Positions 12,728 through 40,287 of a stretch of DNA of 64,000 bases are shown in pieces. Position 1 is the stretch's first letter. Each line of letters begins with the position of its first letter. Source of the stretch: Selaginella tamariscina. Taxonomy: Eukaryota > Streptophyta > Lycopodiopsida > Selaginellales > Selaginellaceae. The stretch is taken from assembly GCA_003024785.1 (NCBI GenBank), contig PUQB01000338.1, positions 124,001-188,000 on the forward strand, in the 5' to 3' direction. Position numbers and translations under genes: made by a program. The notes below the pieces were generated by a model. The model saw nothing but the letters and a program-made list of their open reading frames with translations, was not told the origin of the DNA and ran no database searches.

Positions 12728-12753
12728 CATGCCCACTTAGTTACAACGTGCAT
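12728..12753 (-). repeat. Right terminal inverted repeat of TIR transposon copy 1
   Basis: Read on the minus strand it begins ATGCACGTTGTAACTAAGTG and ends GGGCATG, 26 bp. It agrees closely with both TIRs of copy 2. The outside bases TATT (12754-12757) are the predicted 4-bp target duplication. Confidence 0.8.
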
Positions 12754-14329: not shown

Positions 14330-15087
14330 AAGTATAACGGGGAAAATACCAAAAACAATATATATGGTGAAAAATACAAGAGTTAGAGAAGAACATAGAA
14401 CATACATGATTCAGGTATTAGCGGAATACGACAATTCCAGAGGGAACTGGAATACGGCAGTTCCAAAGAGAACTAGAATATGGCAGTTCCAGAGAGAACC
14501 AGAATACGGCAGTTCCAGAGAGAACCAGAATACGGCAGTTCCAGAGAGAACCAGAATACTGCAGTTCCAAATTTCAACGTATTACATCTAAGGGAGCAGT
14601 TATCATAACGACATTACAACCAACTGGATAAGATTCAAAGGAAGTTACGATAACTGAATGTACTGGACTGGAAGTGTGGGTATAAATAGATGAAGTTAGG
14701 GGTAGGAAAGTATCCTGGGGTATACTGAATATTGTACTATGTTTTGACAATATATACTCTCCTCTTACTCTCACTCTTCAGTATCTTATTTGATTTCTAC
14801 TTCTCATTTCTACTGCGTTCAGGATCTGTAGTCCAACTTGCTATATCTATTCTCTTTCTACTATCTTTGGTATCTTACTTGATTATTTGATTTCTACTGC
14901 GTCGAGATCTACAGTACTACATGCTATATCTTTACTCTTCTTACTTTCTCTATGGTATCTTACTTGATTCTTTGATTCTACTTCTCATTTCTACTGCATC
15001 GAGATTGCAGTACTACTTGCTATATCTTTTCTTTTCTCACTCCCGTTTGACCATCTGAGGATCGGTTTCTAGTCTGTGAGTCTGTCA
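14330..15087 (+). repeat. LTR-like repeat with TATA box, copy b
   Basis: This is related to 12754-13180. It contains GGTATAAATAGATGAAG (about 14680), a TTGTACTATG motif, then a pyrimidine-rich region in which TTTGATTCTACTTCTCATTTCTACTGC-like phrases recur three or four times (14790-15010). No coding signal. Confidence 0.45.
14425..14572 (+). repeat. 26-bp tandem repeat, about five units
   Basis: The unit reads AGTTCCAGAGAGAACCAGAA plus TACGGC. Units are nearly identical, the first two slightly diverged. Each unit contains a short inverted repeat GTTCCAGAGAGAAC, so the tract could form a run of small hairpins. Confidence 0.85.
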
Positions 15088-19958: not shown

Positions 19959-20833
19959 TGTCAAAGTTTTAACCCAAAGGGGCAACACGTGGCAACACAT
20001 GGCTGCCAAGTGGCCATTCAACGTCATCACCCTGTGTGAGCAACGCTAAGTCTTCCAAGATAACCCTAAGAGTCTGACTCAGGGGCCCAATTAGGCAAAA
20101 GACTTAGAGTCCTACCTTAAGTCCCCTAGAATGACCATCCCCTAAACCCTAGAGGATAACCTGAGTAGACTTTAAGATCCTGTCCCAGTAGACCTAGACA
20201 GGCTCATGCCCTAACCCCACAAAGGAGATGTGTCTCACACATACCCCCATGATAGAGCTAAGGCATCGTCACTTACCCCTCGAGGAATCACCCTCATTTG
20301 GGAGTATAACCCCTTTAGGGTGACAAGGGTACCTTGAACCACGACTAACCCCTAAGGGTTTGGGTGGCTAAGTCATACCCTAGACCTAGTACTTAGTAAG
20401 GACACGAGTGTGCGCCGTAGGCGGACACGAGTGTTCTACTAAGCAAACTCCCTAATGCTAGGTTTGAAAACCCTAAGTACATGACTTTGCAAGTGCTTCA
20501 CAAAAAGGCTCTTGCTAAACAAGCTTAGGTTGTTCAACCCTAGATTCCAAGGAGAACACTCCTCTAGCCAAGTGTGCTTAAGCACACCTAGTTAGAAAAC
20601 CTAACCTCCCTTGAGCAAATGCCCAAGGCTTAGCACCCTAGTGCGAGCACAAGTATGTTTGTTTGTCAAAGTATCCAACCCCTTGGCGACAAGCCCATGA
20701 CATAACCCCAAAGGGCGTGCCTCAGGCATTGTATTGTGTGACGTTTAGCCCAGTGTCACATCTCCATGTGACACTGCCTTCCCCGATGTGGGCTATCATG
20801 CCATAGCCCTTAGATTCAAGAGATGCACCAAGT
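19959..20833 (-). repeat. LARD1 5' LTR, first segment
   Basis: The segment starts TGTCAAAGTTTTAACCC and stops at the transposon insertion (AAGT at 20830-20833). Joined to 32794-33629 it makes a ~1.71 kb LTR, the usual LARD length. Confidence 0.88.
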
Positions 20834-20860
20834 ATGCAAGTTGTAACTAAAATGGGCATG
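20834..20860 (+). repeat. Left terminal inverted repeat of TIR transposon copy 2
   Basis: It is 27 bp, beginning ATGCAAGTTGTAACTAAAAT and ending GGGCATG. It pairs with 32764-32789, with one length difference and a few substitutions. Confidence 0.9.
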
Positions 20861-21002
20861 GCTATAGTCCCATTTCCTAATAATTAGCAATTTTAGCTAT
20901 TTAATTAGCATTTTCTAATATTAAAGGAATATTCTTTAGAATATATGTTTGAAAATAAAATATTCTATTTTGTATTCTACCCTTTAATAAATTATAGCAT
21001 TC

Positions 21003-21277
21003 ATTGAACAAAAATTAATAACATTATAAAAGTAGAAGGTATTAAATTATATAATATATTGCCTAATATAACAATTAAGGAAGAGCATAAGAGGTACATT
21101 ATATAAATATTGATGTTGTTATTAAAATATTAATATTTAAATATAACATTATTAATTAAAAATTTGTAGTAGTAATATATATATATATAAATCCTATAAT
21201 AATATAGTCAATCTTCCATATCATTTTTTAAATTTATATAGTTAAGTAAACAATTTGGTACTATTATTAAAGAGTTT
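21003..21277 (+). repeat. AT-rich segment shared with 13621-13911
   Basis: This copy lies inside the TIR transposon between the left end and the DUF7869 gene. It is very AT-rich with a (TA)n run near 21180 and no coding signal. Confidence 0.65.
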
Positions 21278-21335
21278 ATAATAATTATGAATATTAAATA
21301 TATGATATTTTATAATTTTATAATTGCTTTAAGCT

Positions 21336-24300
21336 TCAGAAAATACATTCCCTTGCAGTTTTGTTAATCGTGACTTTATCAACGCTTCTTGACATCCACC
21401 CATATCGAATGGATTTAACATTTATAAAACATGCTAGTTCTTTTTGATTGGGAGACCATGTTTTCTCTAGGCATCCATTATATCTTTCGCTCTCCTTCTC
21501 GTGTCGCCTTTTTTGTGGTTTGAACCATGCAACCTTAACAATACTATTTTTTGTGATTACTTCAGGTGTGTCGATAATTTGACCCATCCAAATAGGCTGA
21601 TTATATGACGCATCTGGAGTAATGAGAACCATCATTAATTTTTGAAGATCCTGGCAGCAATCAAAGTATGCTTTAGGTTTTTGGTTCCTTTGTTCAACAA
21701 AGTGTGGGGTTGCACTTCCACATCACTACTGGCTTCTATGTCGTCTATGCTCAGTGATGTCATTTCAATCTCCTCTTGCCACCTTGATTTAGGCCAAAAA
21801 GGGTGTTGCAATTCTGTACTTGTGACAGTAGGCCCTTCCAACTCTCGAACAACAGTCTCCCAATAGTCAACCACATGCTTATATAGTTCTGAGTAACCAG
21901 TTGCCTTATCAGAATTCTTTGGCATCGATTTTTGAACCCATGCCACATATTTTTTGATGCCATCAATAATAACCTCTTGTTCCTTGAGCTGGGCACTCAA
22001 TGGAATAGGGTCTGGTTGTCCTTCTGGGAGAAGTGGCTTTCCATTCTCTCCACTTTTGAAGAGCATTAACCCCTCTTTTGGTAACCACTCTTGCTCTGAT
22101 GGCCGTAACTTGTACTGCATAATAGGTATACCATCTCATATGGAGAAAAAGAATTGTAGCGGCACAAGGTGACCAACTAAAGAATCACTCCCCTCTTTTA
22201 TATACTCCTTGAGAAATTTTTTGAAGTCTGGCACCTCGGTCACAAGCAAAGCACAACTTTTTTTGGAGATGCAATTTTCAAAAAGATTCATCATATGCGG
22301 TAAGGTAAGTGCACTTGTCCTTTTTGTAGAGTTGGAGACCTTGCTGAAGAACGCATCAATATCTTCATGAGTGTGACCAACCATAAGAAAACTGAGCGTG
22401 ATTGTTTCAAACACACCTTTGGCAACAAGCATTGACAAGTATGCTAGCACATATCTAGAAAATAAAAGTAAGTATGAGCTTGAGAAACCCTTAAGTAAAA
22501 TGATTTACCTATTTTTGTTCTCGCCTGCACAATTATCCATCTGTAAAAGCAAATGACGAGGAAGCTTATTTGATGTTGAGGACACATGTACACTATTTGA
22601 GCTAGATCCCTCCACTGAACCTGAACTCTCAACAGGGCCATCTGTTTTTTGTGTAGGTTGCTGACAATGCCTCTCATATTCCCAAGTAGCCTCAAGTGCA
22701 GACGTGTTCATGAGAGCATTATGTAAAGGTTGAAGGTGTTGTTTTTCACTTTAAGATCACCGATAGGACTTGTCTGTGAGTGGGCTTCAAGGTTTCTGAA
22801 ACACATGGCCAACGACCCAATAGTGAAATTGGAGTCGCTAGACCAATGTGGAAGTGAAAAGTGTCCATATGATTCACAACCGTGTCCATGTGTTAGCACA
22901 CCTGTCAATGAAATCGGAAGTTTCATGACATTTCCAAGGCACTTTGGTGTTGCAACGAGCTTTGGAATGCTGGTCTTTGAATGATCCATCTTGTCATGGA
23001 TCAAGCACAAGTACTCTGATGGGTGTGACATAGAAAGCATGCGGTGTGCATAGTACTGAGACCGGCAAGTTTGTTGCGCAATCATGTGGACCTCCATCTT
23101 CTTTTGAATGGCAGTGATCTCCACCAAAGGTTTTTTGCACAAGCCTCTGCAGCCTTCAATGATGTACAAGTGTCACACTTGGAAAAGCTAGAGTGTTTTG
23201 CAATCTCCACATCCTTAAAATGAGTATTCCATATGTTGTTGAAGGTACCAGTGCAGATTGCTTGCAGCCCCATCAAGCTGAGGCACTTGTTCACATGTTC
23301 ACACAGCTTCAATTGAGTGTAGATCAAAGGCAAAACCTTGAGATTTTCCCTGACCCCTGCATTTGTGGTTCGGCATTTGTGAGGCATCCTGTCTGCATTT
23401 GCTTCCACAAAAGCCTTGAGTATCTCTATGGCTGCCATAATGTGAGAGCGGGTTTTGACCAAGCCAGTGTTCCCATGTACTGAGGTTCGCGCTCCATCTA
23501 ACCACTCATCCCTCTGACGGTAGAACGTGGTCTTTGGGATCCCATATATACTGTACCAAGCTTTGAAGCAGATGGCCACCTTATTAAATACCATGGATGT
23601 ACTCTGATAACCTGTGTCCGAAGCCATTCCATCAATACACCCAGTTAGTGCAGCAATATACAAACTCATGCCTTTGCTTTTTGGGTGAGCGTACGAAAGA
23701 CATGTCTACATTGGGTAATTTCATTCCGGTCTGCCATCTGACAACACTTCTTCTTGCAGCAGTCAATCGTGGAAATGCTCGTAACACTTTCGGAAGATGT
23801 AGGATCCATCTTCATCCTCTTGCTGAAACATGTAGGGGAAGATCTGCAACCCATGAATCGCCTTTTTCTTATAATAGGACCAATGCAAGGAACCTCTTCA
23901 AATATGAGTTGTTCTTCCGGGTTGTTATTATTGAAATCCAACCCAGAATATGTTGAACCATCTTGCCGTCTTAATTCAGATGTTCGCCACCTCACGAGGG
24001 ATCCAGGATGCAAAGTGCCATTAGGTGAAACCTCTGTCACAACTACACCCACGAAGTCGGACCCTAGTTTCTCTTCTGACACTGCTTCCATTGGATTTAT
24101 AGCTGTGATGATGCCTCTCCCAACCTCAATCTCATGAAGAAAGAGAATCACCTCATCCATCACAGCAGGCAAGCCATCATCTGGAAAACTCGTGCTACTG
24201 TTTGTTTGTGACTCTGTATATTCTGTGTCAGCCTTGACTTCATCCAAATTCCACAATACAGGAGAACCCTCCTCAAATTCCATTCCAGGAACCTCAACAT

Positions 24301-24460
24301 GCTTGAAAATGGTGTTCACCCATACGTACACACAAGATCCTTGGGCAATATTGTGACATGATGCATTATCATCTCGAACTTCCACAGTTCCAGTGCCAAC
24401 TATCTCGTTGTTCCGAAGAAGACATACTTTATCTCCAGTATTATACATATTGTCCTGCAC
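21336..24460 (-). pseudogene. DUF7869-type gene, candidate transposase of the TIR transposon
   Basis: It is read on the minus strand. The N-terminal part (24460-23666) has GDKVCLLRNNEIVGTGTVEV and DFVGVVVTEVSPNGTLHPGS, small beta-rich modules of unknown role. A middle part includes SIYGIPKTTFYRQRDEW and a CDTC motif (about 23165). The core, recognised as the DUF7869 family, has an acidic motif in LIHDKMDHSK (about 22985), LLQMDNCAGENKNR (about 22510-22550) and FLMVGHTHEDIDAFF (about 22360). Their order suggests an RNase H-like DDE/D enzyme, which I infer rather than know. A 54-bp GT-AG intron (22508-22455) sits right after ENKNR. The C-terminal end has QPIWMGQIID, a chromo/Tudor-like phrase. 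Lesions: frame changes near 23669, 23125, 22720 and 21640, and an in-frame TGA at 22136-22138. It is the best candidate for the gene that moved this element. Confidence 0.68.
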
Positions 24461-24601
24461 ATAAATAATTGTGTTATTTATGATATCTGTTTATGCAATA
24501 TTTGTAAGAAATCATAACTGCAGTTGCTTAATAATATGCATGTGCAATAATACATAATTATATATAAAAATAATATCTCATGCTTTATTAATATAACTGA
24601 T

Positions 24602-25398
24602 GGGCGGGATTAATCCCGCCGCAGACTCTACCCCTTCAGAGTGAGTCGGCGGGATTAATCCCGCCGCGACTCTACCCCATCGGAGAGAGTCGGCGGGATT
24701 AATCCCGCCGCCGACTCTACCCCGTGGAGAGAGCGGCGGGATTAATCCGCCGCGGGCTCCCTCCGACGAGGAAGTACCGGCGGGATTAATCCCGCGGGCT
24801 CCCTCCGACGAGGAAGTAGCGGCGGGATTAATCCCGCCGCGGGCTCCCTCCGACTAGGAAGTACCGGGGATTAATCCCGCGCCGGATCTTCCTCGTCTGT
24901 GAGAGTCGGCGGGATTAATCCCGCCGCAAATTCCTCCGACGAGGAAGAGGGGGCGGGATTAATCCCGCCCACAACACTGACGACGGAGAATAGGCGGCGG
25001 GATTAATCCCGCCCACAACTCTGACGACGGGGAATAAGCGGCGGGATTAATCCCGCCCACAACTCTCTCCGAAACTATGATTTCAAAGAGATTCGGGATG
25101 AATTCTGCCCACAAATATTTAAAACAGGGTAGTGGCGAGATTAATCCCGCCACCCCTTCTCTGCCTCCTAAAATGGTTGGCGAGATTAATCCCGCCGACA
25201 ACTCTTTCTAATAAATTCAAGTAAATCATTATCAGTTGAGAGAGTTATCGGCGGGATTAATCTCGCCGCTCTTTTTAAGAGGCGGAGAAGCATTGCCCGA
25301 ACTAATTCTGCCATAGCTATGAAAGAGATGGTGGCGGGATTAATCCCGCCACCTCTTCAAAGAGGCGAAAAAAAATGGCCGGATTAATCCCGCCGCCC
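24602..25398. repeat. Palindrome array 2 (about 18 units)
   Basis: There are about 18 units of GGCGGGATTAATCCCGCC, two of them degenerate (near 25092 and 25300), spaced 40-70 bp. The spacers form three types: GACTCTACCCC...GGAGAGAGTC, GGGCTCCCTCCGACGAGGAAG, and CACAACTCTGACGACGG. Several spacers are themselves self-complementary. The array begins ~140 bp upstream of the DUF7869 start codon on the far side of its 5' end. Confidence 0.93.
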
Positions 25399-26560
25399 CG
25401 GCTAACCGAGAATATTAAGTTAAAAGTATATTTAAACGGGATAAATCCCTAACAGAATATATTGTAATCCTAATGCATTCCTAAATCCCTAAATTCTAAA
25501 ATTTAAGAGAGAATGTAAGAGAGTGAATCTTTATAAATATATCTAAATTTTTTATAATACTTACTTGTAAACAGCACTGAAGGCGCCGTGCTTTCCTATA
25601 AACAATAGCGCACCCAATTTAATGTCGCTCCTGAGCTGATCACTAAGAAGAAAAAAGAAAATCTGAAGAGTGAAAATGAAGAAACCCTTGCCGGAGAAAG
25701 AACCAGATCTGAATTTGAGTGGGAAATTAAATGTATTTTCAAATTTACATGTCAGACTGATAATACTTATGTCAGAAATTCAAAAAATAACAGAAAAAAA
25801 ATTTAAGATGAGTTGAAACAAATAACCGACAGTCTGACATATATACTCTCCAATTCCAATGAGTGTTTTAAAATTGCATTTAATGTCATTCAAGTGCTTC
25901 AAGCTGTTTAATATTACGAAATTTTTGTAATTATTCTACATTCTTAATATTCAAGTATATATTATTAAGTTTATATTATATATATATATACACTAATACA
26001 ATAAATAAATTGATATATTATTATGTATCATTTAAAATATATTCATAGTCTGTTTATTATTATTATTTTCTTAATTACTCGAGTAATTAATTTACATTTC
26101 CTACTATTAATGGGATATTCTTTTATTTTCTTAATATTCAAAGAATATTCCAATATTAAACATGATTATCATAATTAAATTAGTCTTATTCTTAATTATC
26201 TCAGTAATTATTCTACATTTGTATATATTAATGGGATTTTCTCAATTAATTTGTTATTATTTCAAGAATATTCTAGTGTTAAACCTTATTATCAATATTA
26301 AATTAATATATATTATTAAAACTATATATGGCTATATATTAGATAAAATCATATATTATTATGTATAATTTAAAATATGTTCATAGTGTGTATATTAATA
26401 TTATTTTCTTAATTATTCGATGTTTGTTTTGCACATATTATATATAAACACAATCATAAATTTATATATACATGTGCACACGCATTAGAAGCACTTACAG
26501 AGACACATATGCACACACATGCACATTGCCCTAAACCAAACTTGAGAAATTATATGTTGC
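25399..26560. other. AT-rich non-coding core of the TIR transposon
   Basis: This is strongly AT-rich with (TA)n runs and repeated words such as TTCTTAATTA and TGGGATATTCTTTT. A related pair of ~180-bp stretches starts near 25980 and 26270 (both contain TATATTATTATGTAT followed by TTTAAAATAT). No convincing coding frame. Confidence 0.5.
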
Positions 26561-27260
26561 TTCTTTATTGAAAAACATCATGTTCAACGCATGTATGATC
26601 TATATGTACTCAGTGTGTGTGTATGTAACACATTGAATTTACACATGTAATATATATGTATGTCTGTGTGTATACACGTGTGTATGTATATATGTGTACT
26701 AATATAATATATGCAATGTGTACGATTTTCATTTGTTAACACTCTATCTCTTCTCTCATACATACACAGTGTCACCATGCATAATCCCTTCTCTCATACA
26801 TACACACCATGCATGATCATGATCCATAATATGTAGCCTGTCTCTTCTCTCATACATACACACCATGCATGATCCATAATATGTACTGATGTTACAATAT
26901 TATGTAATATGTATAATGTATATCTGTGTATAACACTCACTCCTCTCATACATAAACACCATGCATGATCCATCCTAACCCTAAACCCTAAACCCTACAT
27001 TGAATTTACACATGTAATATGTATGTATGTCTGTGTGTATGTGTATATGTGTGTACTAATATATCCAATGTGTATGAATTTAATTTGTTAACACTCTCAC
27101 TCTTCTCTCATACATACACACATGCATGATCCATGTAAATATGTACTGTCTCTTTCTCTCAAACATACACACCATGCATGATCCATAATATGTATTGTCA
27201 CTCTTCTCTCATACATACACACCATAATCTTGTACTATGTGTGTATATATGTATCGCTGC
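26561..27260. repeat. Dispersed short repeats around CATACATACACACCATGCAT
   Basis: The phrase TCTTCTCTCATACATACACA, usually followed by CCATGCATGATCCATAATATG, occurs about seven times between 26750 and 27230. Spacers include TGTGTGTATATATGTGT-type runs. The tract at 26974-26998 is telomere-like. Confidence 0.75.
26974..26998 (+). repeat. Interstitial telomere-like tract
   Basis: There are about three and a half units of CCCTAAA (CCTAACCCTAAACCCTAAAC then CCTA). Further single TTTAGGG units in a ~60-bp repeat follow at 27384-27500. This plant-type repeat supports a streptophyte origin. Confidence 0.75.
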
Positions 27261-27509
27261 ATGTGAAACTTTAACACTCTCATGGACACACACGTGTTAA
27301 ACCCTTGCATGATATTTATTCTTGGGGTGTATGTGATACACCCACGCACACGCACACGCTGATAATATAATGAAAAATATTCGTTTAGGGCGAATCTATA
27401 GTTTATTCTTTTTAGGGTTTAAGTATATTTTAGAAGGAATATTCGATTAGGGTTAATATATATTCTATTCCTTTTAGGGTTTAAGTATATTCCTAGGGTT
27501 TGTAAGCGG

Positions 27510-27946
27510 CGGCGTGGAAATCTCCTTCTCTCTCTCACACAGGTGAGATCTCTCTCTCTCTCTCTCTCACACGCACACTCCTCTGAGTTTATTTATTTAT
27601 TTTTATTCACATATATATTTATATGTGTGTGTATCTTAATAATATAATTTAGATCTCTATCTCTCGCACACACACGCACACTCGTATACATATATACACA
27701 CAGATATATATATATATATATATATATAATCTCTCTCTCTCTCTCTTCTCTATAGATCTCTATCTCTTGCACACACACGCACACTCGTATACATATACAC
27801 ACACAAATATATTATATATTATATCTGTATATATATATATATATATATATCTGTATATATATATATATATATCTCCTTCTCTCTCTCTCTTCTCTATAGA
27901 TCTCTATCTCTCGCACACACGCACACTCGTATACATATACACACAC

Positions 27947-27982
<36 letters not shown>

Positions 27983-28310
27983 TATTTATTTATCTATATA
28001 TATGTGTGTGTGTGTTTGTTTATCTGTATGATTTTATTTGTTTCACACACGCATACACACGATATACATATACACATATATATATATATATACCTAAGTA
28101 TACATACATATATTATGTGTACCAGTATCTGTATAATTTTATTTATTTATCTATCTCTCACACACACACGTGTATATACATATACATATACATATATATG
28201 TTGTGTGTGTATCTGTATAATTTTATCTGATTTGACTATCTCTGGCACACACACGCACTCTCCTACACAACACATATACATATATATATCTGTGTGTGTG
28301 TGTGTGTGTA
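27510..28310. repeat. Microsatellite block (TC)n, (AC)n, (TA)n, (TG)n
   Basis: A larger unit repeats: CTCTCTCT tract, TATAGATCTCTATCTCTCGC, ACACACGCACACTCGTATAC, then (TA)n. At least four copies run from 27655 to 28000, then degenerate ones to 28310. Long frames across it are repeat artefacts. Confidence 0.9.
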
Positions 28311-29048
28311 GCGGCGGGATTAATCCCGCCGCTATATGGTGAGACGTGTGTAGCGGCAGGATTAACCCCGCCGCTATATAATTAGCCACTCGGCGGCGAG
28401 ATTAATCCCGCCGCCATTTCAGGCCCGAGTGAAGGGCCTGGGCGGCAGGATTAATCCCGCAACCTACGCATGCCTTGTGCGGAATTGGGCAGGATTTATC
28501 CCGCCGCCATTGGCCTGCCTGAAGGGCCTGGGCGGCGGGATTATCCCGTCGAATTCCGCACAGGGCATTGGCGTCCGGCGGGATTAATCCTGCCGACTAA
28601 GGCCGAGTGAAGGGCCTGGGCGGCGGGATTAATCCCGCCACCTACGCATGCCCTGCGCGGAATCGGACGGGATTTATCCCGCCGCCATTGGCCTGCCTGA
28701 AGGGCCTAGCGGCGGGATTAATCCCGCCGAATTCCGCACAGGGCATTGGCGTCCGGCGGGATTAATCCCGCCGCCCTGCACGAAATCCAGCGGGATTAAT
28801 CCCGCCCGATTCCGCGCAGGGCATTGGAGCGGGATTAATCCCGCCGCCTAGGGCCCAAGTGAAGGGCTGGGCGGCGGGATTAATCCCGCTACCCTGTGCG
28901 GAATCGGGCGGGATTAATCCCGCCGCCAAAGGCCTGCCTAAAGGGCCTAGGCGGCGGGATTAATCCCGCCCGATTTTGAACAGAAAATTGGCGTCCGGCG
29001 GGATTAATCCCGCCGCATAGGGACCGAGTGAAAGCCCTGGGCGGCGGG
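28311..29048. repeat. Palindrome array 3 (about 17 units plus a half) in TIR transposon copy 2
   Basis: There are about 17 units of GGCGGGATTAATCCCGCC, a few with GGATTTATCCC or one-base losses. A higher-order unit of roughly 150-180 bp recurs, containing CACCTACGCATGCCCTGCG, CATTGGCCTGCCTGAAGGGC and GCACAGGGCATTGGCGTCC between palindromes. The last unit stops after GGCGGGA and joins directly to the body of the ParB-like gene at 29049. Confidence 0.93.
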
Positions 29049-29401
29049 AACAAATGAGGAAGATTCAGATGGAGAATAGAAAATCAATCAAGTACTACAT
29101 CATTAGTGGCCAGCACACAATAACAGCAGCCCAATGACTTCTCGATGAACACAACAAGGAACGATGGCAACACAAAACTTTCCGAGCATACCTGTGAGAA
29201 GCTGACGAAAAGATCGGCGTTTTTAGCGAAGCCGAATCTCACAATCGAGCAATACCATAAGTTATCGGCGGAATGGAACGCTGCAGACACCAACCACTAC
29301 AACAGCAAAATATGAGAGAAGTTCAAACACACGCGAGCCGTGTGGGAATCTCTTCAGCAACCACAAAGAGCTAGCAGGAATACACAATCTGCGGACTACC
29401 G
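29049..29401 (+). pseudogene. ParB-like gene copy 2, truncated 5' part
   Basis: The sequence starts inside the gene, at a point matching 4202 of copy 1; everything upstream of it there is absent here. It reads EQMRKIQMENRKSIK, then YYIISGQHTITAAQ, the hallmark end of a ParB-like domain, then DEHNKERWQHKTFRAY and LTIEQYHKLSAEWNAADTNH. A TGA after TAAQ, a frameshift at about 29190 and another stop at about 29313 break it. A GTAAGC donor follows at 29402 and the intron ends CTCAG at 29462. The intron carries a decayed palindrome, GCGGGATTTATCTCGTCGG. Confidence 0.6.
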
Positions 29402-29462
29402 GTAAGCAAATTGTTTGGGCGGGATTTATCTCGTCGGTATATTAATCTGTCTTTTTTCTCAG

Positions 29463-31103
29463 AGAGTTGAAGAAATTGTAGCAGTTGATTTTGCCCAGGT
29501 GGGCGGGAAGGAAACATCCTTTTTAATGATGTTGATTTCTTGTCCCGAGGATAGGATCTTTGCGAAATGGTTAGGGATTATGGAATCCTTTGCAAAAGGA
29601 ACACTGAAGAAGAAGTAGACAAGTGAAGTGGAGCCCTCAGATAAGTCTGCAAAGAAACCCAGTAAGACGCCGAAGTCTAAGTCTGTTCAATCTATAAAGG
29701 ATGTAGACAACGATTTCAAGCTCACATGGTTGAAGCCTTTAAATGGAACAACGATGGAGGAGATGGAAGTCTTGGCTGATTTGGTGATTAATGGCAAATT
29801 ACAGATTAACAACAGCAGCCCCACCTCTCCTTTTCATCTCAAGGCAATGGAGTTGAAGACGGTCAGGCACTTCAAGGAGTGGTTGGGAATACACTACCAC
29901 AAACTGGGTTGGATTTCGACTTCAACATACGAAGAGGTCAACAAATATTTGCATGTGACAAATGATGATATGCTTGTCAAATGGGTGAATCAATCGGAAG
30001 ATTTGGGCAAGAATCTATTGCACGCCAACGCCAAAAAGGAGAACATATGATGCCTTCTCTTATGGCAGTCCTTCAGCAGCGGAGAACGAGTTGAACCTTA
30101 TAAAGGAGGATGCTACGAATCACGACAAGCCCTACAGATGTTTGTTGTTGGATTCAGAGACTTTATGGGGTACCATCACTGCTTGTAGGAAACCGTTTCA
30201 ATTGTTTGTGATGGATCGGCGGGTGTCAAAAAATCCTTCAACAGACAGGACACTAGAGGATTTGGTGGAGAAACTTAGTCGTGCAAGTATGTACAAAGAA
30301 GGTATTTATTATTGAATTCATACTTGTACTCTTGACTGATATCTACGTTTTCAGGTATTTATTTCTTGATTCTTGCTCATGTCACCGATACCTTTGCCTT
30401 CTCCTTTGCCAAGAGGAATAAACATCGTTGGACAGGATTTTATATGAATAATGCTGATCCGAAGTGCATTGATTCGGTTGTTCACTTGGTTATTAAGAAT
30501 GCGCCAAACAGTTTCAAACTTCCAAATGATTGGCCAGGCATCTGTTTGCACTCCAACGGCCCTGAACCTCCATCCGATACACCGATAGGACAGAGTGACG
30601 TATTCTGCAATGTACGTTATTCAAACATCACAAGTCAAGCGGCACAGAGCATCGTCAACTTGATCAGGGGTCCTCACAGTGATGCGTGGGTTTTTGACTA
30701 CTGCACTAGGGGGTCCGTCTTGAAGGAGTGTTACCTTCGGGATACATGTGTGTTTGCCATTGAAAAGGATAAGACCATGGTTGAGGACCTGAACAAGTGG
30801 ATAGATAGGTTCTCAACTGACTACCCCAACGAATCCACAAAGGAGTATTTGAGAAAGTTCCCTCCCGATAAGTGCGATAGCTCTGAAGATGAATCTGGTT
30901 CAATGTTGGAGTCTGAGGACGAACTTCAATCAGATATTAGACCGGAAGTTATCTCGAGGAGTACAGAACATTTGCACACTCCATTACCCATGGAAACATC
31001 AATAGAAGATACAGAAGATCATGAACCATCTCACAAGCGGCTTAGACCTTCTTCGCCTCACTCAGAAGGTAATAGCGAAGAAGAATTGTTAATGAGTTCT
31101 TAG
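29463..31103 (+). pseudogene. ParB-like gene copy 2, linker and methyltransferase-like part
   Basis: The first exon (29463-30301) has RVEEIVAVDFAQVGG, a lysine-rich linker, FHLKAMELKTVRHFKEWLG and FQLFVMDRRVSKNPSTDRTL. A 53-bp intron (30302-30354) splits the codon of EG/IYFLILAHV. The second exon (30355-31103) has FAFSFAKRNKHRWTGFYMN, NLIRGPHSDAWVFDYCTRGS, CYLRDTCVFAIEKD and an acidic tail ending LLMSS. The D-x-C-x-x-G-S and A-I-E-K-D pair resembles the SAM-binding half of N6/N4 DNA methyltransferases, and ParB-like plus methyltransferase is a pairing known from phage and bacteria. No DPPY-like catalytic motif is seen, so activity is doubtful. A TAG at about 29617 and a one-base change near 30047 disrupt exon 1. 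The FCP1-like gene follows 218 bp downstream. Confidence 0.5.
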
Positions 31104-31321
31104 AGTGACGAATAGTTGTAAATGAGTATAACATAAGGCATTTTTGTATATTTCGTTTATATTTGTACAGAAAATAAATTCTCAAGGATTAATGAAGCTT
31201 TTAGTTCAAACATGGGTCACACATTAACAAGGTAAATAATATACCTTGATAATTTTAAGGTCAGTTAATTATCATTTTGCAGATGTAATGAGGTAAGAGA
31301 GGGGTTTGGCGACAATTTCTT

Positions 31322-32521
31322 GTGCCACATGTAGAGTTCATGCAAGAAATGGATAATAATGCAGCTCAAAACATCATTACCATGAGGGCCACTTCAGTTT
31401 TTTCATCATCATTTTTATTGGCTTCAGTTCCAAAATCAATTTCTTCATCGCATGCAATATCTGAATCTTGTAAGGATGATGTACAATTAAATGATGAAGG
31501 GATAGGCAACGAGATAGTGGCAACGGATAAATGTGAAAGGGAGCAAACAAGTGATTTGCAAAGTATTCAAGAGGCAACGCTATCTCATGTTACTCATGGC
31601 CATATTGTGTTGTTAGATGTCAATGGTGTTCTGCTTCATCGACAAAGGCCCGAGGATAGGAAAAAAGAAATCAAACAAGGAGATTTCATTCCTTGTCATG
31701 GTAAATTTCGATATGATATTATTTTTCGTCCAGGGTTGGATCGTCTCTTTCAAAAGCTTAAGGAGATGGGTGCGCTTGTGGGGATTTGATTATGCATGCA
31801 GATTCATAACTTAACACCGCTGTTGAATTTGCTTAAGAAACATTGTAGTGTTGCAGAAGAGGTGATTCGTAAAGATTGGATTTTTGACCAGCGAATGTGT
31901 TATAAACCTCTCGAATTTCACAATATAAGAAAGGAAAGCAAGCCATACTTCTTCAAGAATGAAAGAATAATTGGGACTCATGGGGAGATCAATCGCTTAA
32001 GGATAATGAAGAATGCACATATCTTAGTAATAGACGACTCTCCTCAGAAGGCTATGCTCAACCAAAACATTGCTTGTATTTATCCAATCACTTTTGATCC
32101 ATATTTTGATACCAATATCATGGATGAGCTAGTGAACTACTTGGATATGTGCCTCAGAAAGAAGAATCTCAAAAATTTTTGTAAGTAGTATCCACCGTAT
32201 CATACATTTCCTAAAGCTTTTCTTTCTCGTGATTTTGAATTTTATAAAATGAAGGATAGCAACCGGGCGCTTTATAATATTATTCTTAAAGAATGTCATT
32301 TTTTAGATGAGCCTTTATGCAGACCTGGTTTTATTACATCTTATGTATTAATAAGGATGGCAACTCCCAATTGCATTTGTGAGAGTGTTAGGTGGTGGCA
32401 ACAACATCAATATATTAACCAAAATGATTTGATTAATCCGGAGAGTGATGATTTAAACAAAATGAGGAGATTTCTCTGTATGGTTAGGAAGAAAGTATTT
32501 ATAAATAAATTAACATGTTGA
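31322..32521 (+). pseudogene. FCP1-like HAD phosphatase gene, copy 2
   Basis: This is one collinear frame of 400 codons with two nonsense changes. The N-terminal ~85 residues are serine-rich and acidic. The FCP1/NIF homology domain then gives HIVLLDVNGVLLHRQRP (catalytic Asp; Asn replaces the second Asp, as in plant FCP1-like proteins with an LDLNG motif), FRPGLDRLFQKLKEMGALVG, YFFKNERIIGTHGEINRL and ILVIDDSPQKAMLNQ, and ends with a helical tail and KLTC. TGA at 31787-31789 replaces the TGG of copy 1, and TAG at 32186-32188 replaces CAG. Known relatives dephosphorylate Ser/Thr residues, for example on RNA polymerase II; the target here is unknown. It lies within the transposon, 218 bp after the ParB-like gene and about 240 bp before the right TIR. 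Confidence 0.82.
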
Positions 32522-32763
32522 TAAGGAAATGATTTCATTTGTAATTATGTTTGATAGTATTTCTTCATTATTGTAAACTATTTTTAGAATAATATGAATA
32601 TTCTAAGATATTTTAGGAATATTCCTTACTAAGTAAGGTTATTGAAGGATTAATTAATTAATTTATTTATTTAAGGCTTAATTACATATTAATTAAATGA
32701 TTAATTAATAATTAAAACTTAAGTATTAATTAGTAATTTATTTATATTCCCATTTTCATGTAT
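32522..32763. other. AT-rich 3' region of TIR transposon copy 2
   Basis: It is collinear with 12481-12727 of copy 1, rich in TTAATTAA, with no coding signal. Confidence 0.6.
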
Positions 32764-32789
32764 CATGCCCACTTTAGTTAAAAGTGCAT
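32764..32789 (-). repeat. Right terminal inverted repeat of TIR transposon copy 2
   Basis: On the minus strand it begins ATGCACTTTTAACTAAAGTG and ends GGGCATG, 26 bp. It matches the left TIR at 20834-20860 and copy 1's right TIR at 12728-12753. AAGT follows outside. Confidence 0.9.
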
Positions 32790-32793
32790 AAGT

Positions 32794-33629
32794 GCCACAA
32801 ATGTGGCTCCTAAATGTCAACTCTAGAACCCCTTAGTGAACCCTCAGGAATGTAAACCTGTCAAATAAGATCCCACACCCATAGTTGGTCAAGGACACAG
32901 ATGTGCCTTGCTTGGCCATGAGTGTTACACCTAGCTTGATGTGGAGGAGGAGGCTGGAGATAAGCCTCAACCTCTGCCTCTTGGAACGTGCATCCCGACA
33001 AGACCTCCCAAGCATGGATTCGCCAACGTTAAGGGTAAGCTACCCCAAAGGTGGGATGTACCCCTGTCATCTAGAAGTTAGGGCGACACAATAGAGGGTT
33101 GTACCTTAACGACACAAGCTAAAGCTTGCATCGGTAGAAAAGCAATGAACTCAGTCATGAACCCAGGAGCTCTCCTTACGTTTACTCTACCTTATTTATG
33201 TGACGAAGCACCCCTCCCCCCCCCCCCTCTTTTCCTGTATGTGTAAGTGGGATGGCACTGAATGCCAGCCCCTTAGTTAATGAGATGAGTTTGCACACTA
33301 ACCCCTACCCCTAAACCCTAACCAAGGGGCGTGGGTTAGGGCAACCCAAGGGTTAGGTCAACCCTAGGGGTGTTCCTAACCCTATTTAACATGCCAAACT
33401 CATCTTAATTAAGATGTCAAAATTGGGGGTGGGTTTTCTAGAAGGTAAGTGCTACTTTCGCTTAGAGTTTCTCACGACATCTAAGATAGCCGGCCGGACT
33501 ACCCCTAAACACCTAAGTGCACTAAGAAGGCCTATTTCTCACTACATCTAGGGTCCGTCAACATAGTACAGTAGGTAACAACAATTAACCTCCAAAGTAA
33601 AGGGTTAAGTCATAGTAAAAACTATGATA
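32794..33629 (-). repeat. LARD1 5' LTR, second segment
   Basis: The LTR resumes with GCCACAAATGTGGCTCC and ends ACTATGATA, a one-base change from the usual ACTATGACA. Confidence 0.88.
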
Positions 33630-34015
33630 GAAACATTTATGGACAGCGAAAATGTAAATGTGAATATCTTGTTAAGTGAAAAGGGTACTCGGCATGCGAG
33701 TCGACATGGGAACCATTGGAGAATCTGCAAAAAGCGATGGAGTTGGTGAATGAGTTTGAGGCAAGGTCTCAAACTAATTAAGAAATAAAGTTATTTCTTT
33801 TTAACCTAGGGGCCAACAGACAACAATAACTAAAGGCTTCCGATATAAATTCTAGTTAACTAAAAGAAATTAACTAACTTGTTATTTGTGTCGGGTGACA
33901 GACTTTGCAGACGTGCAAAAGGTCTCCAAATGACTTCTTGTCACAAGTGGTACCTCCGACAGCTGAGTTCTCGGTCAGTGAATGACGGTTCTGAAGTATC
34001 TGGCTTCACGTAATG
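33630..34015 (+). pseudogene. G0: chromodomain end of an older chromovirus
   Basis: The fragment reads KCEYLVK-type chromodomain residues followed by a frame change, then CESTWEPLENL-like and ELVNEFEARSQTN at the end of pol, and 3' untranslated sequence with GTCGGGTGACAGACTTTGCAG. A chromodomain at the integrase C-terminus directs insertion to marked chromatin in chromoviruses. The upstream part of G0 is cut off by LARD1 and the downstream part is separated by G1, resuming at 47809. Confidence 0.75.
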
Positions 34016-34960
34016 TGTCATAGTTTTTATATGACTCGACTCTTTACTTTGGGTTTGACTGTTGTTACCTACCGAGTTGTGTGGCAAACCCTAGTTGTAA
34101 TGAGAAACACCCCCACTTAGTGCACTTAGGTGTTTAGGGATAGTCCGGCCGGCTGTCACTAGGTACCTCGAGAAACTCTAGCTGAAGGTAGTACTAAAAC
34201 TCTCCCCCAGTTTGACGTTACAAAGATAGATTTTCCATTAATTATAGCTTGTCAAAAAGGGTTAGGGACACCCCTAGGGTTGACCTAACCCTAGGGTTTC
34301 CCTAACCCCACGCCCTAATACCCCCCCTAGGGGTTAGGTTTAGGGTTAGGTCAGGACAACCGTTTTCTCTAAGGGCTGGCATTTCCGTGCCAACCCACTT
34401 ACTCACTTAGGTAAACTGGGGGGGGGGTCCATCACATAAATATGGTAGAGTATATGTAGTGAGGCTTCCTGGATTCAAAAGAGAGCTCGTTAACCTCCTA
34501 CCGGTCCAAGGTAAGCCAAGGTGCAACCCTCCGTTGTGCCGCCCTAACTTCCACACGACAAGGGTACCCTAGGTTAGACTATCCTTATGTTGGCAGGATC
34601 TTGCCTTTGAGATAGGGGCACGTCATTTCCAAGGAATTAGTCAGATTCCTTGGTCCAAAAACCTGCTCACAAGCTCAAAGGTATTGCCCGAGTTCACATT
34701 CCATAAAACTAGTGGTTGAGGCCTTGCTCCGGCCGCCTCAACCACGCCAAGCTAGGAACGACACCTAAGGCTCGGCTAGTCTATGTATCCTGATTTATAA
34801 GGTGAGTCTCATTCGTGGACTTAGTAGTTAGGGGTTTGAGTTCTTAAGGCTTGGGTTCCTAATACGGGTTATATTACCAGATTCTGTGGGTTTCCAGAGA
34901 GGGGATTCCAGGGTTGGCACCTAGCAAGCCGCCTTGTGGCACTAGGTAAAAACTCTGACA
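34016..34960 (+). repeat. G1 5' LTR
   Basis: It is 945 bp, from TGTCATAGTTTTTATATGAC to AAACTCTGACA. It has a G-run (about 34420-34429) 10 bp before CATAAATATGG, a likely TATA region. The first ~20 and last ~12 bases match LARD LTR ends, so both can use the same integrase. Confidence 0.9.
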
Positions 34961-34962
34961 AT

Positions 34963-34974
34963 TGGTACCGGAGC
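34963..34974 (+). other. G1 primer binding site
   Basis: TGGTACCGGAGC starts two bases after the LTR, one or two changes from the usual initiator Met-tRNA site TGGTATCAGAGC (perfect in LARD3 at 42618). Confidence 0.8.
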
Positions 34975-35290
34975 AAGTTCTCTGCTGTCAGTAGGACTAC
35001 CTTAAGTCGTAGGGTGTTTCAGTGTTTAGATGACTCTAAATTCTTGATATACTCTATTACTTTCGGTTGACATGTCTATATTCTACGCAAAGAGTTTGAT
35101 CCTGTTGAGTTGTCAAACTTCGGAGAACACTTGCTCAGTGAGTCAGCATAAGATTCTAGGTATGTCCGAAACTCTTATGCTGGTTTAAGTTGATGTGTGT
35201 GGGTGTACAACCTGTGCAGGGTGTTTCCAATTTCACATTGGGAATATTCCAAGCATATTCTCCGAGTGTTGAAACAAGGGTTCAATACAA

Positions 35291-36924
35291 TGAGCAAAAG
35301 AAAGTAACCAGAGCTTGAGGCAGAGAGGGTTGTCGCAGAGGCTCAAAATGAGGAGATGGATGAGGCTAATCCAGGTCTACCCCCTAGAGTTAGACAACGA
35401 CTTGGTTGGCGAGAAATAATGATGGATGCCCTAAACAAACTTCAAGGGGATGTTTTGGGGTTGAACGACCGAATCGATAATGTTGCCGTTCGGATTCCGA
35501 CAAATACTGTAGTGCCAGATGTTTCACAACCTAGACACACGGAAAAAGAAGAAGAAGCATGACTCAGAGTCAGGTTCCTCTGAATTAGATTCTTCAACAG
35601 AAGTAGGTGGTGGAGGTCCTAGTAAATTCAAATCGGTAAAGCCTTCGAATTTCATGGGTTTAAAGGATTACAAGGTTTTGGATGACTAGTTGTATGATAT
35701 GGAAAGCTACTTCGAGGCTGCTTCCGTGAGAAAGACAAAAAAGGTTGCATGTGCTAAGCAGTTTCTTAAAGAAGAAGCTAAGACTTGGTGGCGAATTGTT
35801 GAAGGTGAACGTGGATACCGAAACAGCTGGAAGCACATGAAAAAGGAGATCAAAAAGCAGTATATGCCGGATGATCTCGGTTTGCGATTGCGTGCTGACC
35901 TGGCACTTTGTCAACAGGGAGTTCGGGGAAGTCCTATGGACCACGTTTATCGATTCGAAAGTGTGATGAGCGATGATGAAGCTCGAAGTTGCTTCATGGC
36001 TAGCTTGAATGAGAAGACGCGAAGAAAATCTTAAGGTACAAGCCAACAAGCTATCGGGAATGTCAAGAGGCAGCTCAAAAGGTTGCTTATGGCATGTCGT
36101 TAGAAGACTTGTACAAAGGGGAGGAAGCAAAACCTAAAAGGAAGTTTCCTCCAAAGTCTGGGTTCAGAAGGTTTGATAGGCGACCAGATCAATCGCCATC
36201 AATTCGAAGTGCAAGTCCCTTTGTCGGCAGTTCCAAGTTTTCGGACACATCAAGACCCACCGGATTTCGGAAACCATTGGCGTTACCACCTCCTCAGCAG
36301 GCCAAAGGATCGGCTCCAAAGTCTGCTCCCCCGCGTTCCGCACGGGGTGTGAAATGTTATAATTGTAACAAGCCTGGTCATTTTGCTAAAGAGTGTCAGG
36401 CACCCTCACAACAATCAGGACATTTCAAGGCGATGGTAGAAGAGGAAGTTGCTGAACCAGAAACGCTTGAAGATCCGGAAGATGAGTCAGAAGAGGTAAT
36501 GTTGTGCCAGACACAACCTGCCTTATTCGCTATTCAAGACAAAACTGACCCTTTGCTATATTTGACAGGAAGGATACGAGGGGACCGAGTCCGAATGATG
36601 ATCGATACTGGAGCAACATACAACTTCATATCGACTAGTCTAGCTCGTCGATTGAATTTGGATGTAATAAAGATGTGTGAAATAAAGATCAATTTTGGCA
36701 AAGGTTCTCAAAATACTAATAATATAGCAAGGGCAGTTCCTGTCCAAATCAAAGATTGGAAGGCTAAGCTAGACTTAGTTGTCTTGAATATGACGGGGTT
36801 TGATTTTTTGGGTATGGAATGGTTCCATAAACATGTAATCGAAATGAGGGGTTCCGGAGATAATCGAATCACGCTTGCAGCAGATAAAGAGGACATTAAA
36901 AACAACGCTCAATGGAAACGCTAA
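35291..36924 (+). pseudogene. G1 gag and protease
   Basis: The likely start ATG at 35291 is followed at once by MSKRK and a TAA, then an open frame to 35562 (NPGLPPRVRQRLGWREIM). The capsid region (35690-36034) has FLKEEAKTWWRIVEGERG and KKQYMPDDLGLRL. The third frame (36094-36924) has a basic, proline-rich stretch, the zinc knuckle CYNCNKPGHFAKEC (about 36355) and the retropepsin site MMIDTGATYNFIS (about 36597). Frames break near 35562, 35688 and 36034. The order is standard for plant chromoviruses. Confidence 0.88.
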
Positions 36925-39905
36925 CTGATAAGGATTGGAATCCTATGTTCCTTACCTTAACTCAGTTGCGTAAGGCAGTTAGACATCAGAACGTGTGTTT
37001 CTTGCAATGGTTTTGGATACTGGTGAAGTCAAAATAGGAGATGGTCAAGAATCTGTTCCTGAACCTATTTTGGAAGTCTTGAACATGTTTAAGGATGTGT
37101 TGCCAGAAGACTTGCCGCCCGAGTTACCTCCACGTCGAGTTGTGGACCACAGATAGAGATTTTGCCAGGTTCGTCTCCACCGGCAAGAGCCCCATATCGG
37201 TTGAATCCTCAAGAGTTAGTAGAATTGAAGAGACAGCTGACAGAATTGATTGGTCGAGGACACATTCGACCTAGTCGATCACCGTATGGTGCACCTATCT
37301 TGTTCGTAATGAAAAAGGATGGTACGATGCGAATGTGTGTGGACTATCGAGCGCTGAACGCGATAACTATCAAAAATAAGTATCCTCTTCCACGAGTGGA
37401 CGACTTATTTGATAGGCTATCAAAAGCAAAGTATTTTTCAAGAATAGACTTGAGATCGGGTACCATCAGATTCGGGTAGCAGAGAATGACATTGAGAAGA
37501 CCGCTTTTCGAACGCGTTATGGATCATTTGAGTTTCTAGTCTTGCCATTCGGGTTGTGCAATGCTCCAGCAACTTTTTGCACAATGATGGATGATGTGTT
37601 TAGAGACTATCTAGACGAGTTCGTAGTGGTGTATATTGATGACATTCTGATTTTCAGTTCGACAATTGAGGAACATGTGGAACACTTAGAAAAAGTGTTT
37701 CAGAGGTTGAGAGAGAACCAGTTGTATGCTAAAGAAAGCAAGTGCGCATTTGGTCAAACCAAGATAGATTTCTTGGGACACTTGATCTCAGGTGGGGAGG
37801 TTGCCATGGACCCAAAGAAAATTCAAGCTATTACTGAGTGGATGACTTTAAAAGATGTGCAAAGTTGGTCATTATTGAAGATTCATAAAGGGTTACTCGG
37901 AAATAGCGGCCCATTGACAGATCTTACGAAAAACATTCCATGGCATTGGACTCCAGAGTGCCAACGTGCGTTCGTCAAACTCAAAGAGGCTATCTCTTCT
38001 GAGCCAGTTTTTGCAGTTGCCCATCTTTGAAGATCCCTTTGAAGTAGAATGTGACGCTTCCGACTTTGCAATTGGTGGTGTATTGCAACAGAAAGGACAT
38101 CCAGTGTCCTTTTTCTCGAAGAAGTTAGATGCCGCGCAAACTCGATGGCCTACTCACGAAAAGGAGATGTATGCTATTGTTGCTTCCTTGGAGTATTGGC
38201 GTCATTATCTTCCAAGTCATGGTACTGTGGTTTGGACAGATAGTGTAACTCTAAGATATTTTGAAACGCAGCCGAAGCTATCGTCGAAGTATGCTAGATG
38301 GCAGCAGAAGTTGGCACGATTTCAGCCTGAAATCAAACATAAAGGGAAAGGACAATGTGGTAGCTGATGCACTCAGTAGAAAGGGTCATTCGGATTATGT
38401 CAGCACCCATGTCAACTTTGGTGGATGAATTTGTGACGGCGTATCCTCAGGACAAGTTTGCTAAGGAGGCTTTGAGCCTGGTGGCAAAGAGGAAACAAGT
38501 TCATCAGTTACGAAGAGATGGTAATATTCCAGCAGGAATAGAAAGTCGAATGGATGCACTCAAACAGGCGCATTTTGTGGTACGAGATGGAGTTCTTTAT
38601 TATAAAGAAAAGAGACTCTATGTTCCAGAAGGGACATGGAGGGAGAGGCTGTTAAGAGAGCATCACGATGTTCCTTTGGCAGGACATGGTGGAAGGCATA
38701 AGACGTTGGCTTTGTTGAAACAGGGATTCTATTGGCCGGGTATGATAGACGATGTTGCCAAGTATGTCAAGACATGCCCCACTAACAAGTGAAGTGCCGA
38801 TTCGCAAAAACGAGCTGGGAAGTTGCAGTGTATACCGATTCCAGAGCGGCCATTTCAAAGTGTTACTTTGGACTTTATCATGGGATTGCCAAAATCTTGT
38901 GGTTTTAATGCGCTCATGGTGGTAGTCGATCGATTTTCAAAGGTTGCTCATTTCATTCCAACTGTAGAGACAGTGAATGCAATTCAAGCAGCAAAGTTGT
39001 TCTTCCACGAAGTCATAAGAGTGCACGGACTACCGGAAACCATGATCTCAGATCGGGATCCTCGGTTTACGGGGAATTTTGGGGGACGTTTTTAAGCAAT
39101 TTGGTACGATGTTGAAGTTCAGTACAGCTTACCATCCCAAATAGATGGTCAAACAGAGAGAGTGAACCGACAAGTCGAGGACTATCTCAGATGCTATGTT
39201 CAAGGTGATCAACTTGATTGGGCTGAACACTTAATATGGCTGAGATATGTTACAATAACTCGACACACTGCAATCGGATGTAGCCCGATGGAAGTGTTAA
39301 CTGGGAATAAGGGTGGTATTCCTCAGAGTATGGTGTTACCGAAAGACGATAGCAATCGTTCCATCTGTAGCAGAGTTCATGGGACAATTGTATCGGACAT
39401 GGGAAGCTGCTCGTCAAGCGATGGCTGTAGCACAGGAAAGGTATCATCAGCAGTACGATAAGCATCGGCGGGATGTAGAGTATCAGGTTGGGGATATGGT
39501 ATTGTTGAGTACCAAAAACCTGAAGGTTCCAACGAGGAAGTTTCTATTGCACTACATAGGTCCATACAAGGTGGTGAAGCAAGTAGGGAAAGTGGCTTAT
39601 GAGTTAGATCTTCCTCTGGAGTTGGGAACAATACACAATGTGTTTCATGTCAATTTACTCGAGCCATTCCACAAAGATGAGAAACATCTACAGAGATATG
39701 AAAACTTACGTCCGCTTCCTGAGCTGGTGGCGATACGAAGAGTTCGAAGTTGAGTTGATTTTGGATGCAAAGGATATTAAACCGAGGGACGGAAACGTAA
39801 ACGAGAATATCTTGTTAAGTGGAAGGGTTACCGGCATGCGAGTCGACATGGGAACCATTGGATAATCTACAGAACGCGATGGAGATAGTGAAGGAGTTTG
39901 AGGCA
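36925..39905 (+). pseudogene. G1 pol: reverse transcriptase, RNase H, integrase, chromodomain
   Basis: Reverse transcriptase starts after [12 protein letters not shown] (about 37100) with [20 protein letters not shown] and the catalytic YIDDILIFS at 37632. RNase H has CDASDFAIGGVL (38050) and WTDSVTLRYF. Integrase has HHDVPLAGHGG and CPTNK (38660-38790); the second Cys pair is lost by a small deletion that G1' keeps (CPTCQQ). DDE residues lie in TLDFIMGLPKS (about 38868), ISDRDPRF (about 39044) and QTERVNRQ (about 39150). The GPY module reads HYIGPYKVVKQVGKVAYEL (39552 on). A chromodomain REYLVKWKGY starts near 39805 and a one-base loss breaks it. Frames also shift near 37470, 38020, 38350, 38790, 39090 and 39350. 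Confidence 0.9.
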
Positions 39906-40273
39906 AGGTCTCAAACTGTTAGTCTTATTTCTTATTAACCTAGGGCCGATAGACAACCTTAACTAGAGGCCTCCGATATAAATTCTAGTTAACTTAAAGA
40001 AATTAACTAACTTGTTGTCTGTGTCGGGTGACAGACTTTGCAGACGTGCAAAAGGTCTCCAAGTGACTTCTTGTCGCAGGTGGTGCCTCCAACAGCTGAG
40101 TTGTCGCTCAGTGAATGATAGTTCTAAGTACTTGGTTTCGCGTAATGCAAGGGGGTAATAAAACTTGTGAACTTTTTGCTGACTCCGCATAGAGTGATTG
40201 TTAGTTTTCAGTTAATTTTTCCTAACCTAGTCTAGTCTTGGAGTTAGACGTCAACGAGGACGTTGACATTTCC

Positions 40274-40287
40274 AAAGGCAGGGAGTG
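40274..40287 (+). other. G1 polypurine tract
   Basis: AAAGGCAGGGAGTG precedes the 3' LTR directly. The same tract, AAAGGCGGGGAGTG, precedes the LTRs of LARD3 (46389) and G0 (47961). Confidence 0.75.

Follow-up and report, generated by a model that had tools for sequence, protein, structure and literature searches.

What kind of element holds three genes and two arrays of palindromes between short inverted ends, and what do the palindromes do for it? The question is raised by a 64,000-nucleotide stretch of the Selaginella tamariscina genome (contig PUQB01000338.1, positions 124,001 to 188,000; hereafter "the window"), in which positions 20834–32789 form a single transposon inside a long terminal repeat (LTR). 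We conclude that it is probably a cut-and-paste transposon of the Sola kind, with gene A, of the DUF7869 family, as its transposase, genes B and C as accessory genes under constraint, and the arrays most likely as binding sites for one of its own proteins. The evidence computed here consists of the ends, the target site duplications (TSDs), empty sites, repeated insertion, gene linkage, the fold of a homologue, low ratios of nonsynonymous to synonymous change (dN/dS) and the conservation of the palindromes. The gene A protein would bind the 26–27-bp ends and cut the element out, which would then insert at a staggered cut and so leave 4-bp duplications; B and C would be inherited with it as constrained accessory genes, and the arrays, predicted binding sites for the ParB-like gene B protein or for the transposase, would when bound mark and regulate the element's own copies.

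The original prediction had delimited a DNA transposon by terminal inverted repeats (TIRs), a TSD and an empty site, and the delimitation is borne out: ends of 27 and 26 bp are flanked by AAGT on either side, and the uninterrupted target string TGCACCAAGTGCCACAAA stands at six places in the window (15325, 49490, 54402, and 56398 on the plus strand, 41578 and 47195 on the minus strand), the empty site named at 54408 being present but not the only one. The contents as described (a DUF7869 gene, gene B, an FCP1-like gene, and several kinds of repeat) are likewise all present, and an Rfam scan of the window returned nothing at gathering scores; comparison with the PDB by sequence gave nothing meaningful either. 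The window copy is internally deleted: in an alignment with the 15.0-kb copy C728 its array 2 is followed at once by sequence corresponding to position 11255 of that element, and the 5′ part of gene B is therefore gone from it.

The insertion recurs across the 300.7-Mb host assembly, in which the window belongs to contig C658. A search with the leftmost 201 bp of the element yielded 478 first-look candidates, of which 40 were scored (93–100% identical), and 19 of these 40 places were examined: the window copy, ten as 20-kb stretches, and eight by their end regions, with right ends identified within the fetched stretches only. Both ends, the right one in proper orientation, are found in 13 of the 19, which are the copies testable for TSDs; excluded from the count are C1304b, whose right end is that of another copy in inverted orientation, and C815, C224, C528, C1270b, and C948, which have no right end in the fetched stretch. 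Exact 4-bp TSDs flank seven of the 13 (AAGT, AATT, GTAT, CTAT, TCTT, ATAT, and CTAT), while two pairs are off by one base and four are mismatched, that of C1304a matching if shifted by one base. At a match rate of 0.0081 the chance of at least seven matches in 13 is 4e-12, and in a control of mismatched left and right flanks 3 of 156 pairs agree.

Between these ends gene A adjoins the left one on the minus strand, with B and C on the plus strand and C adjoining the right one. The eight compared copies are 9.3–16.9 kb long; this layout is kept in all eight end-to-end copies (C1112 having only a piece of B), and the B–C order in all five further copies fetched at their right part. Genes B and C stand beside the right end, in the same order, in 13 of 13 testable copies (one with a B fragment only), which agrees with the earlier view that the genes travel with the element; copies elsewhere, examined for missing termini and for genes never occurring together, have both the shared termini and the genes together. 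Copy C877 (L031–L032) has two B–C cassettes in tandem, which suggests recombination between elements.

Gene A is predicted to be the DDD transposase of the element. DUF7869 is the sole family above cut-off in a profile search of the gene, which has an intron between ..NCAGENKNR and YVLAYL..; its relatives carry PF25273, some of them also PF26133, and the homologue matches include a DUF7869 protein from Physcomitrium. The predicted structure of a close homologue, P0002, is an RNase H fold with DDE/DDD transposases and integrases as its best matches (Foldseek alone was not significant with this model), in which conserved acidic residues, assigned by their position on strands and helix, form a candidate triad of D192 (or D195), D353, and D393 or D395. 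From this model we infer that gene A catalyses the movement of the element. DUF7869, a domain of unknown function in Pfam, is thereby tied to the RNase H transposase fold, and of the "three unrelated genes" first described, all three are present but not all are cargo, the DUF7869 gene being the predicted transposase by homologue fold and acidic residues.

A search of the assembly with DUF7869, which takes in all DUF7869 elements beyond the family described here, gave 4249 first-look candidates, of which 150 were scored, with 300 matches; the longest open frames containing a match reach 1092 codons, and 14 control genomes gave 0 matches. IMG/VR contained no DUF7869, while a collection of genome contigs held four loci (L001–L004) in metagenome-assembled genome bins assigned to cyanobacteria or Bacteroidetes, which are probably eukaryotic contamination.

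Gene B had been called ParB/methyltransferase-like, and here the gene itself is present, while the name comes from motifs seen by eye, which profile searches do not confirm, and the catalytic position is altered. The ParB-like reading comes from the stretch NFNYRPLNQERVAELM..YYIISGQHTITAAQRLL, with no ParB match in Pfam, NCBIfam, or PHROGs; the methyltransferase reading, which likewise has no profile match, comes from the order of motifs and from a stretch WVFDYCTRGSVLKECYLR-TCVFA-EKD that by eye resembles what we take to be the S-adenosylmethionine-binding motif I, V.D.F.GSGT..A....R....E.D. The catalytic motif of methyltransferases is usually (D/N/S)PP(Y/F/W), with DPPY expected in the beta class. 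Gene B does not follow it but reads DRRV in the ten copies readable in frame (the window copy, C728, C213, C508, C877, C984, C1304a, C1145, C1280, and C615) and, beside a frame break, DRRC in C1270a. Because of DRRV, gene B, if it has the methyltransferase fold, is probably inactive here and may be a binding protein. An AlphaFold model of its second half had a predicted local distance difference test score (pLDDT) of 43 and was discarded; no homologues of gene B or of gene C were found in the protein collection at E ≤ 1e-3, none of gene B in IMG/VR or phages, and none of its first part in plasmids. We regard as chance an NCBIfam P-type ATPase model on the first part (17.7 bits, where the cut-off is 431) and matches to phrog_6044, of unknown function (E 0.015 and 0.032).

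The parallel for such a gene is Sola1-1_Ec32 of the brown alga Ectocarpus, described in the accessible text of its report as a giant Sola-1 element with a ParB-like plus DNA methyltransferase gene of 1104 amino acids on the strand opposite the transposase (PMC12477816, 2025). The same text proposes that the ParB-methyltransferase genes of eukaryotic transposons bind and modify their own element, and leaves the binding site unnamed (PMC12477816). The Selaginella element is also giant, with gene B as a long gene (about 1000 amino acids, as the sum of its reading frames) on the strand opposite gene A, but unlike the Ectocarpus gene it has DRRV and lacks a profile match, and the two systems are matched by layout. 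It further differs in its third, NIF/FCP1-like gene, the accessible main text on Ectocarpus being without the word "phosphatase", and it has palindrome arrays, for which the Sola1-1_Ec32 paper was not searched. Sola elements and Sola ParB-methyltransferase genes are thus already published, while the third FCP1/NIF-like gene, the palindrome arrays, the link between DUF7869 and an RNase H transposase, and purifying selection on all three genes are apparently new: in narrow literature searches only one of the papers listed for Sola and palindromes, a review, had a Sola term, none joined a Sola transposon with an FCP1/phosphatase accessory gene, and none mentioned DUF7869.

Gene C is predicted from its sequence to be a member of the NIF/FCP1-like HAD phosphatase family, scoring above the PF03031 cut-off of 21.8 bits in copy C1304a (47.2), where it is open for about 300 codons, and in the joined read of the window copy (44.1); the first open reading frame (ORF) of the window copy alone falls under it (18.9). 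The usual catalytic motif of the family is DxDx(T/V). As gene C reads DVNGV, without the second aspartate, phosphatase activity cannot be assumed.

The palindromes, 18-bp units of the form GGCGGGATTAATCCCGCC, form two arrays upstream of genes A and B and are mostly about 44 bp apart: 12 of the 16 steps in array 1 are 42–45 bp and 7 of the 13 in array 2 are 44–46 bp (19 of 29 over both arrays are 42–46 bp, the others spanning 34–133). Array 1 precedes gene A in all 11 stretches read (C815, with 2934 N there, has only 3 units) and array 2 precedes gene B in nine, being absent in C815 and C1112. Over 141 pooled units of array 1 and 130 of array 2 the outer GGC..GCC, which is not part of the filter used to pick units, is conserved at 85–96%, against 26–70% in the linkers. 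The substitution rates in aligned arrays (0.053 in the palindrome against 0.188 in the linker) are not our main evidence, because an alignment that slips by one repeat raises the value for the linker. The same palindrome recurs in three other copies whose DUF7869 frames are long, with 10, 5, and 14 perfect units in the 2.7 kb before the gene, a count reached by 0 of 100 shuffles in each. The element thereby offers a concrete candidate binding site for the idea that ParB-methyltransferases bind their own transposon, namely a conserved palindrome mostly at steps of about 44 bp before both transcription units, and opens self-recognition to a test that needs a single purified protein and a single DNA probe; if the idea is true, the arrays may let the transposon recognise its own copies.

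The distant DUF7869 loci bear on this as well. At L001 seven near-copies of TTTAGCTCGAnTCGAGCTAAA flank the gene to the left and right, at L002 three copies of a palindrome precede it, 51 bp apart, and at L004 four near-copies of one lie downstream of the DUF7869 match, while L003 has no repeated palindrome; repeated palindromes are thus found beside three of the four, each unlike that of the element. Of 200 shuffles each, 18 reach the perfect-palindrome count of L001, 0 that of L002, 2 that of L004, and 200 that of L003. Since six 5-kb host stretches outside the element have 1–3 perfect palindromes each, against 6.7 per 5 kb in the element, only the element stands out by number, and the distant loci are distinguished by repetition. 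These figures supersede an earlier count with other limits (L001 1, L002 4, L003 0, L004 0, element 22, control 32790–44745 4).

How the arrays would be used can be sharpened by analogy with VANC, an accessory protein of the Arabidopsis VANDAL transposons, which, in the accessible parts of two reports, binds targets in tandem repeats, which vary from one related element to the next, and removes methylation (PMC5735166; PMC10398659). In a version of our reading that we consider possible but doubtful, the gene B protein would bind its own arrays in the manner of VANC and remove or block silencing marks, thereby allowing transcription of A and B, and in each DUF7869 family the palindrome would co-evolve with a binding protein of that family. 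The position of the arrays before both genes and their conserved outer bases are consistent with this, as are the other palindromes at L001, L002, and L004 and the ratio of observed to expected CpG, which is 1.26 in array 1 and 1.09 in array 2 but 0.39 in gene A, 0.71 in gene B, and 0.57 over the whole window. As described in those same parts, VANDALs resemble our element in being DNA transposons that carry an accessory gene along with tandem arrays of short motifs, differing between families, in non-coding regions (PMC5735166; PMC10398659). The motif here is an 18-bp palindrome and the accessory protein another one, and binding and anti-silencing are proposed by analogy. Several points weigh against this version. 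The microsatellite-rich spacer at 27500–28310, outside the arrays, has a CpG ratio of 1.05, so that high CpG is not specific to the arrays, where turnover could also hold it high; VANC is a different protein, and VANDALs are Mutator-like; and in the distant loci palindrome numbers alone are weak, given the shuffles and the host control, with the L004 array lying downstream of the match. More tentative again, and in our view rather unlikely, is the wider proposal, also made by analogy, of a DUF7869/Sola class with centromere- or operator-like, family-specific palindrome arrays, which would be read by an element-encoded ParB-like protein with the phosphatase as third partner and would keep the element's own promoters open or mark its copies; this would amount to sequence-specific self-recognition of the kind known from ParB/parS or the targets of VANC.

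The arrays could instead be targets of a host transcription factor, by which the activity of the element's genes would be tied to S phase. Conserved arrays upstream of both genes would suit this too, and GGCGGGA resembles what we take to be half an E2F site; but a single host factor, if conserved, would leave the unrelated palindromes of L001, L002, and L004 unexplained, and in aligned copies the TTAA centre, which lies outside the E2F half site, is changed in 12–14% against 13–25% in the arms (the picking pattern includes the centre). We therefore keep the E2F meaning as a rival only, because of the other palindromes of the distant relatives, and judge it unlikely.

That the element is a Sola transposon is likely, an assignment made by published description; within Sola, Sola1 is most likely. 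According to the accessible parts of the literature, Sola elements have a DDD transposase, a 4-bp TSD, and TIRs of 11–1124 bp, measure mostly 2–9 kb with some above 15 kb, and are known from the moss Physcomitrella, where they are Sola1 (PMC10741241; PMC9033089). The fit rests on the DDD transposase and the 4-bp duplications, and both TIR length and total size are inside the reported ranges, whereas curated bivalve Sola1 elements, with a mean length of 5445 bp in the accessible part of their report, are much shorter than the 12–15 kb found here (PMC10294476). The contents had at first been thought to fit no nameable superfamily, a view not borne out, since the predicted transposase gene, the 4-bp TSDs, and an opposite-strand gene with ParB- and methyltransferase-like motifs read by eye match what is published for Sola/Sola1. 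The TTAA-specific duplications of Kolobok and piggyBac are not seen here, none of the exact TSDs being TTAA. Another superfamily with 4-bp TSDs, such as Chapaev/EnSpm-like, Academ, or Ginger, we hold to be quite unlikely: TSD length alone does not decide among superfamilies, and the first ORF of gene A weakly matches Transposase_23 (TNP1/EN/SPM; E 0.12, below cut-off), but DUF7869 is the only family to pass the cut-off and the relatives of gene A carry its profile.

All three genes are under purifying selection, weakest on C. Ten copies were compared with a reference copy for gene A: dN/dS is 0.18–0.34 in eight of them, and the remaining two (C728 and C213) have three and one differences only. 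For gene B it is 0.09–0.12 in the middle and 0.13–0.22 in the ParB-like part (four pairs each with dS > 0.08); the other three pairs per part have few changes, and ratios such as 0.70 from 11 changes in C508 and 0 from 2 in C213 and C877 carry low weight. Gene C gives 0.15–0.56 in eight copies, with 0.37–0.56 in the two most diverged pairs. Every comparison is given whatever its length, only copies with a match to the gene being listed, and the values are not independent estimates, because the copies share ancestry and have in part decayed. Broken reading frames are frequent across the copies, while the codon alignments have no more than 2 in-frame stops in any one gene of a copy; as the breaks are common despite so few stops and low dN/dS, they may in part be uncorrected assembly indels. 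That B and C are functionless host fragments caught by chance is very improbable, for although gene B has frame breaks in the copies read, neither gene has homologues that we could find, and constraint on C is the weaker, functionless cargo would be expected to have a dN/dS near 1 and both genes are linked to the right end wherever this could be tested.

Features of the element, its target sites, and copy 1 in the window
Feature	Position	Strand	Basis or remark
Left TSD copy, AAGT	20830–20833		Read in window sequence
Left TIR, 27 bp, ATGCAAGTTGTAACTAAAATGGGCATG	20834–20860	+	Window sequence; leftmost 201 bp of the element matched at 40 scored places, 93–100% identical
Gene A, DUF7869 (PF25273), predicted transposase	21336–24490	−	Several exons/frames; profile match and homologue fold
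Palindrome array 1, 17 units of GGGATTAATCCC	24603–25449		At most 1 mismatch; directly upstream of gene A
Spacer	25450–28310		Mostly AT-rich; microsatellites and CTCTCATACATACACACCATGCATGATC repeats
Palindrome array 2, 14 units	28313–29014		Upstream of gene B; adjoins the gene B 5′ deletion
Gene B, ParB-like and beta-class methyltransferase-like	29047–31103	+	Both by motif; 5′ part deleted here
Gene C, predicted NIF/FCP1-like HAD phosphatase family (PF03031)	31349–32188	+	One internal stop in window copy
Right TIR, 26 bp, ATGCACTTTTAACTAAAGTGGGCATG on other strand	32764–32789	−	Window sequence
Right TSD copy, AAGT	32790–32793		Window sequence
Empty target site, AAGT once	54408–54411	+	Paralogous LTR
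Further empty sites	15331, 49496, 56404	+	
Further empty sites	within 47195–47212, 41578–41595	−	
Copy 1, remainder of array 2	2630–2825		5 units, 44–45 bp apart; gypsy element to left
Copy 1, gene B	3165–6053	+	More of the 5′ part than in window copy; gene start undefined
Gypsy LTR retrotransposon	6054–10838	+	Nested in copy 1 gene B; 5-bp duplication GAGGA
Copy 1, gene B end, gene C, right TIR	10839–12753	+	Right TIR at about 12728–12753

A second, partial copy in the window, copy 1, had been reported to keep genes B and C and their order, and it does: 29047–30919 matches copy 1 at 4203–6053 with 93.5% identity and 30915–32789 matches 10839–12753 with 91.3%, the two parts being separated by the nested gypsy element. 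The remains of this copy are flanked by gypsy elements at 1–2100 and 6054–10838 in opposite orientation, one left of array 2 and one within gene B; stretches of the two are 95–99% complementary (inverted repeats I6, I8, I10, and I25). A fragment at 13616–13911, inside a gypsy-like stretch and without a terminal repeat, shares 86% identity with the element's left subterminal region (21001–21275). At 14424–14569 a tandem array of 26-bp units (GAATACGGCAGTTCCAGAGAGAACCA, 5.6 copies) lies within another repeat.

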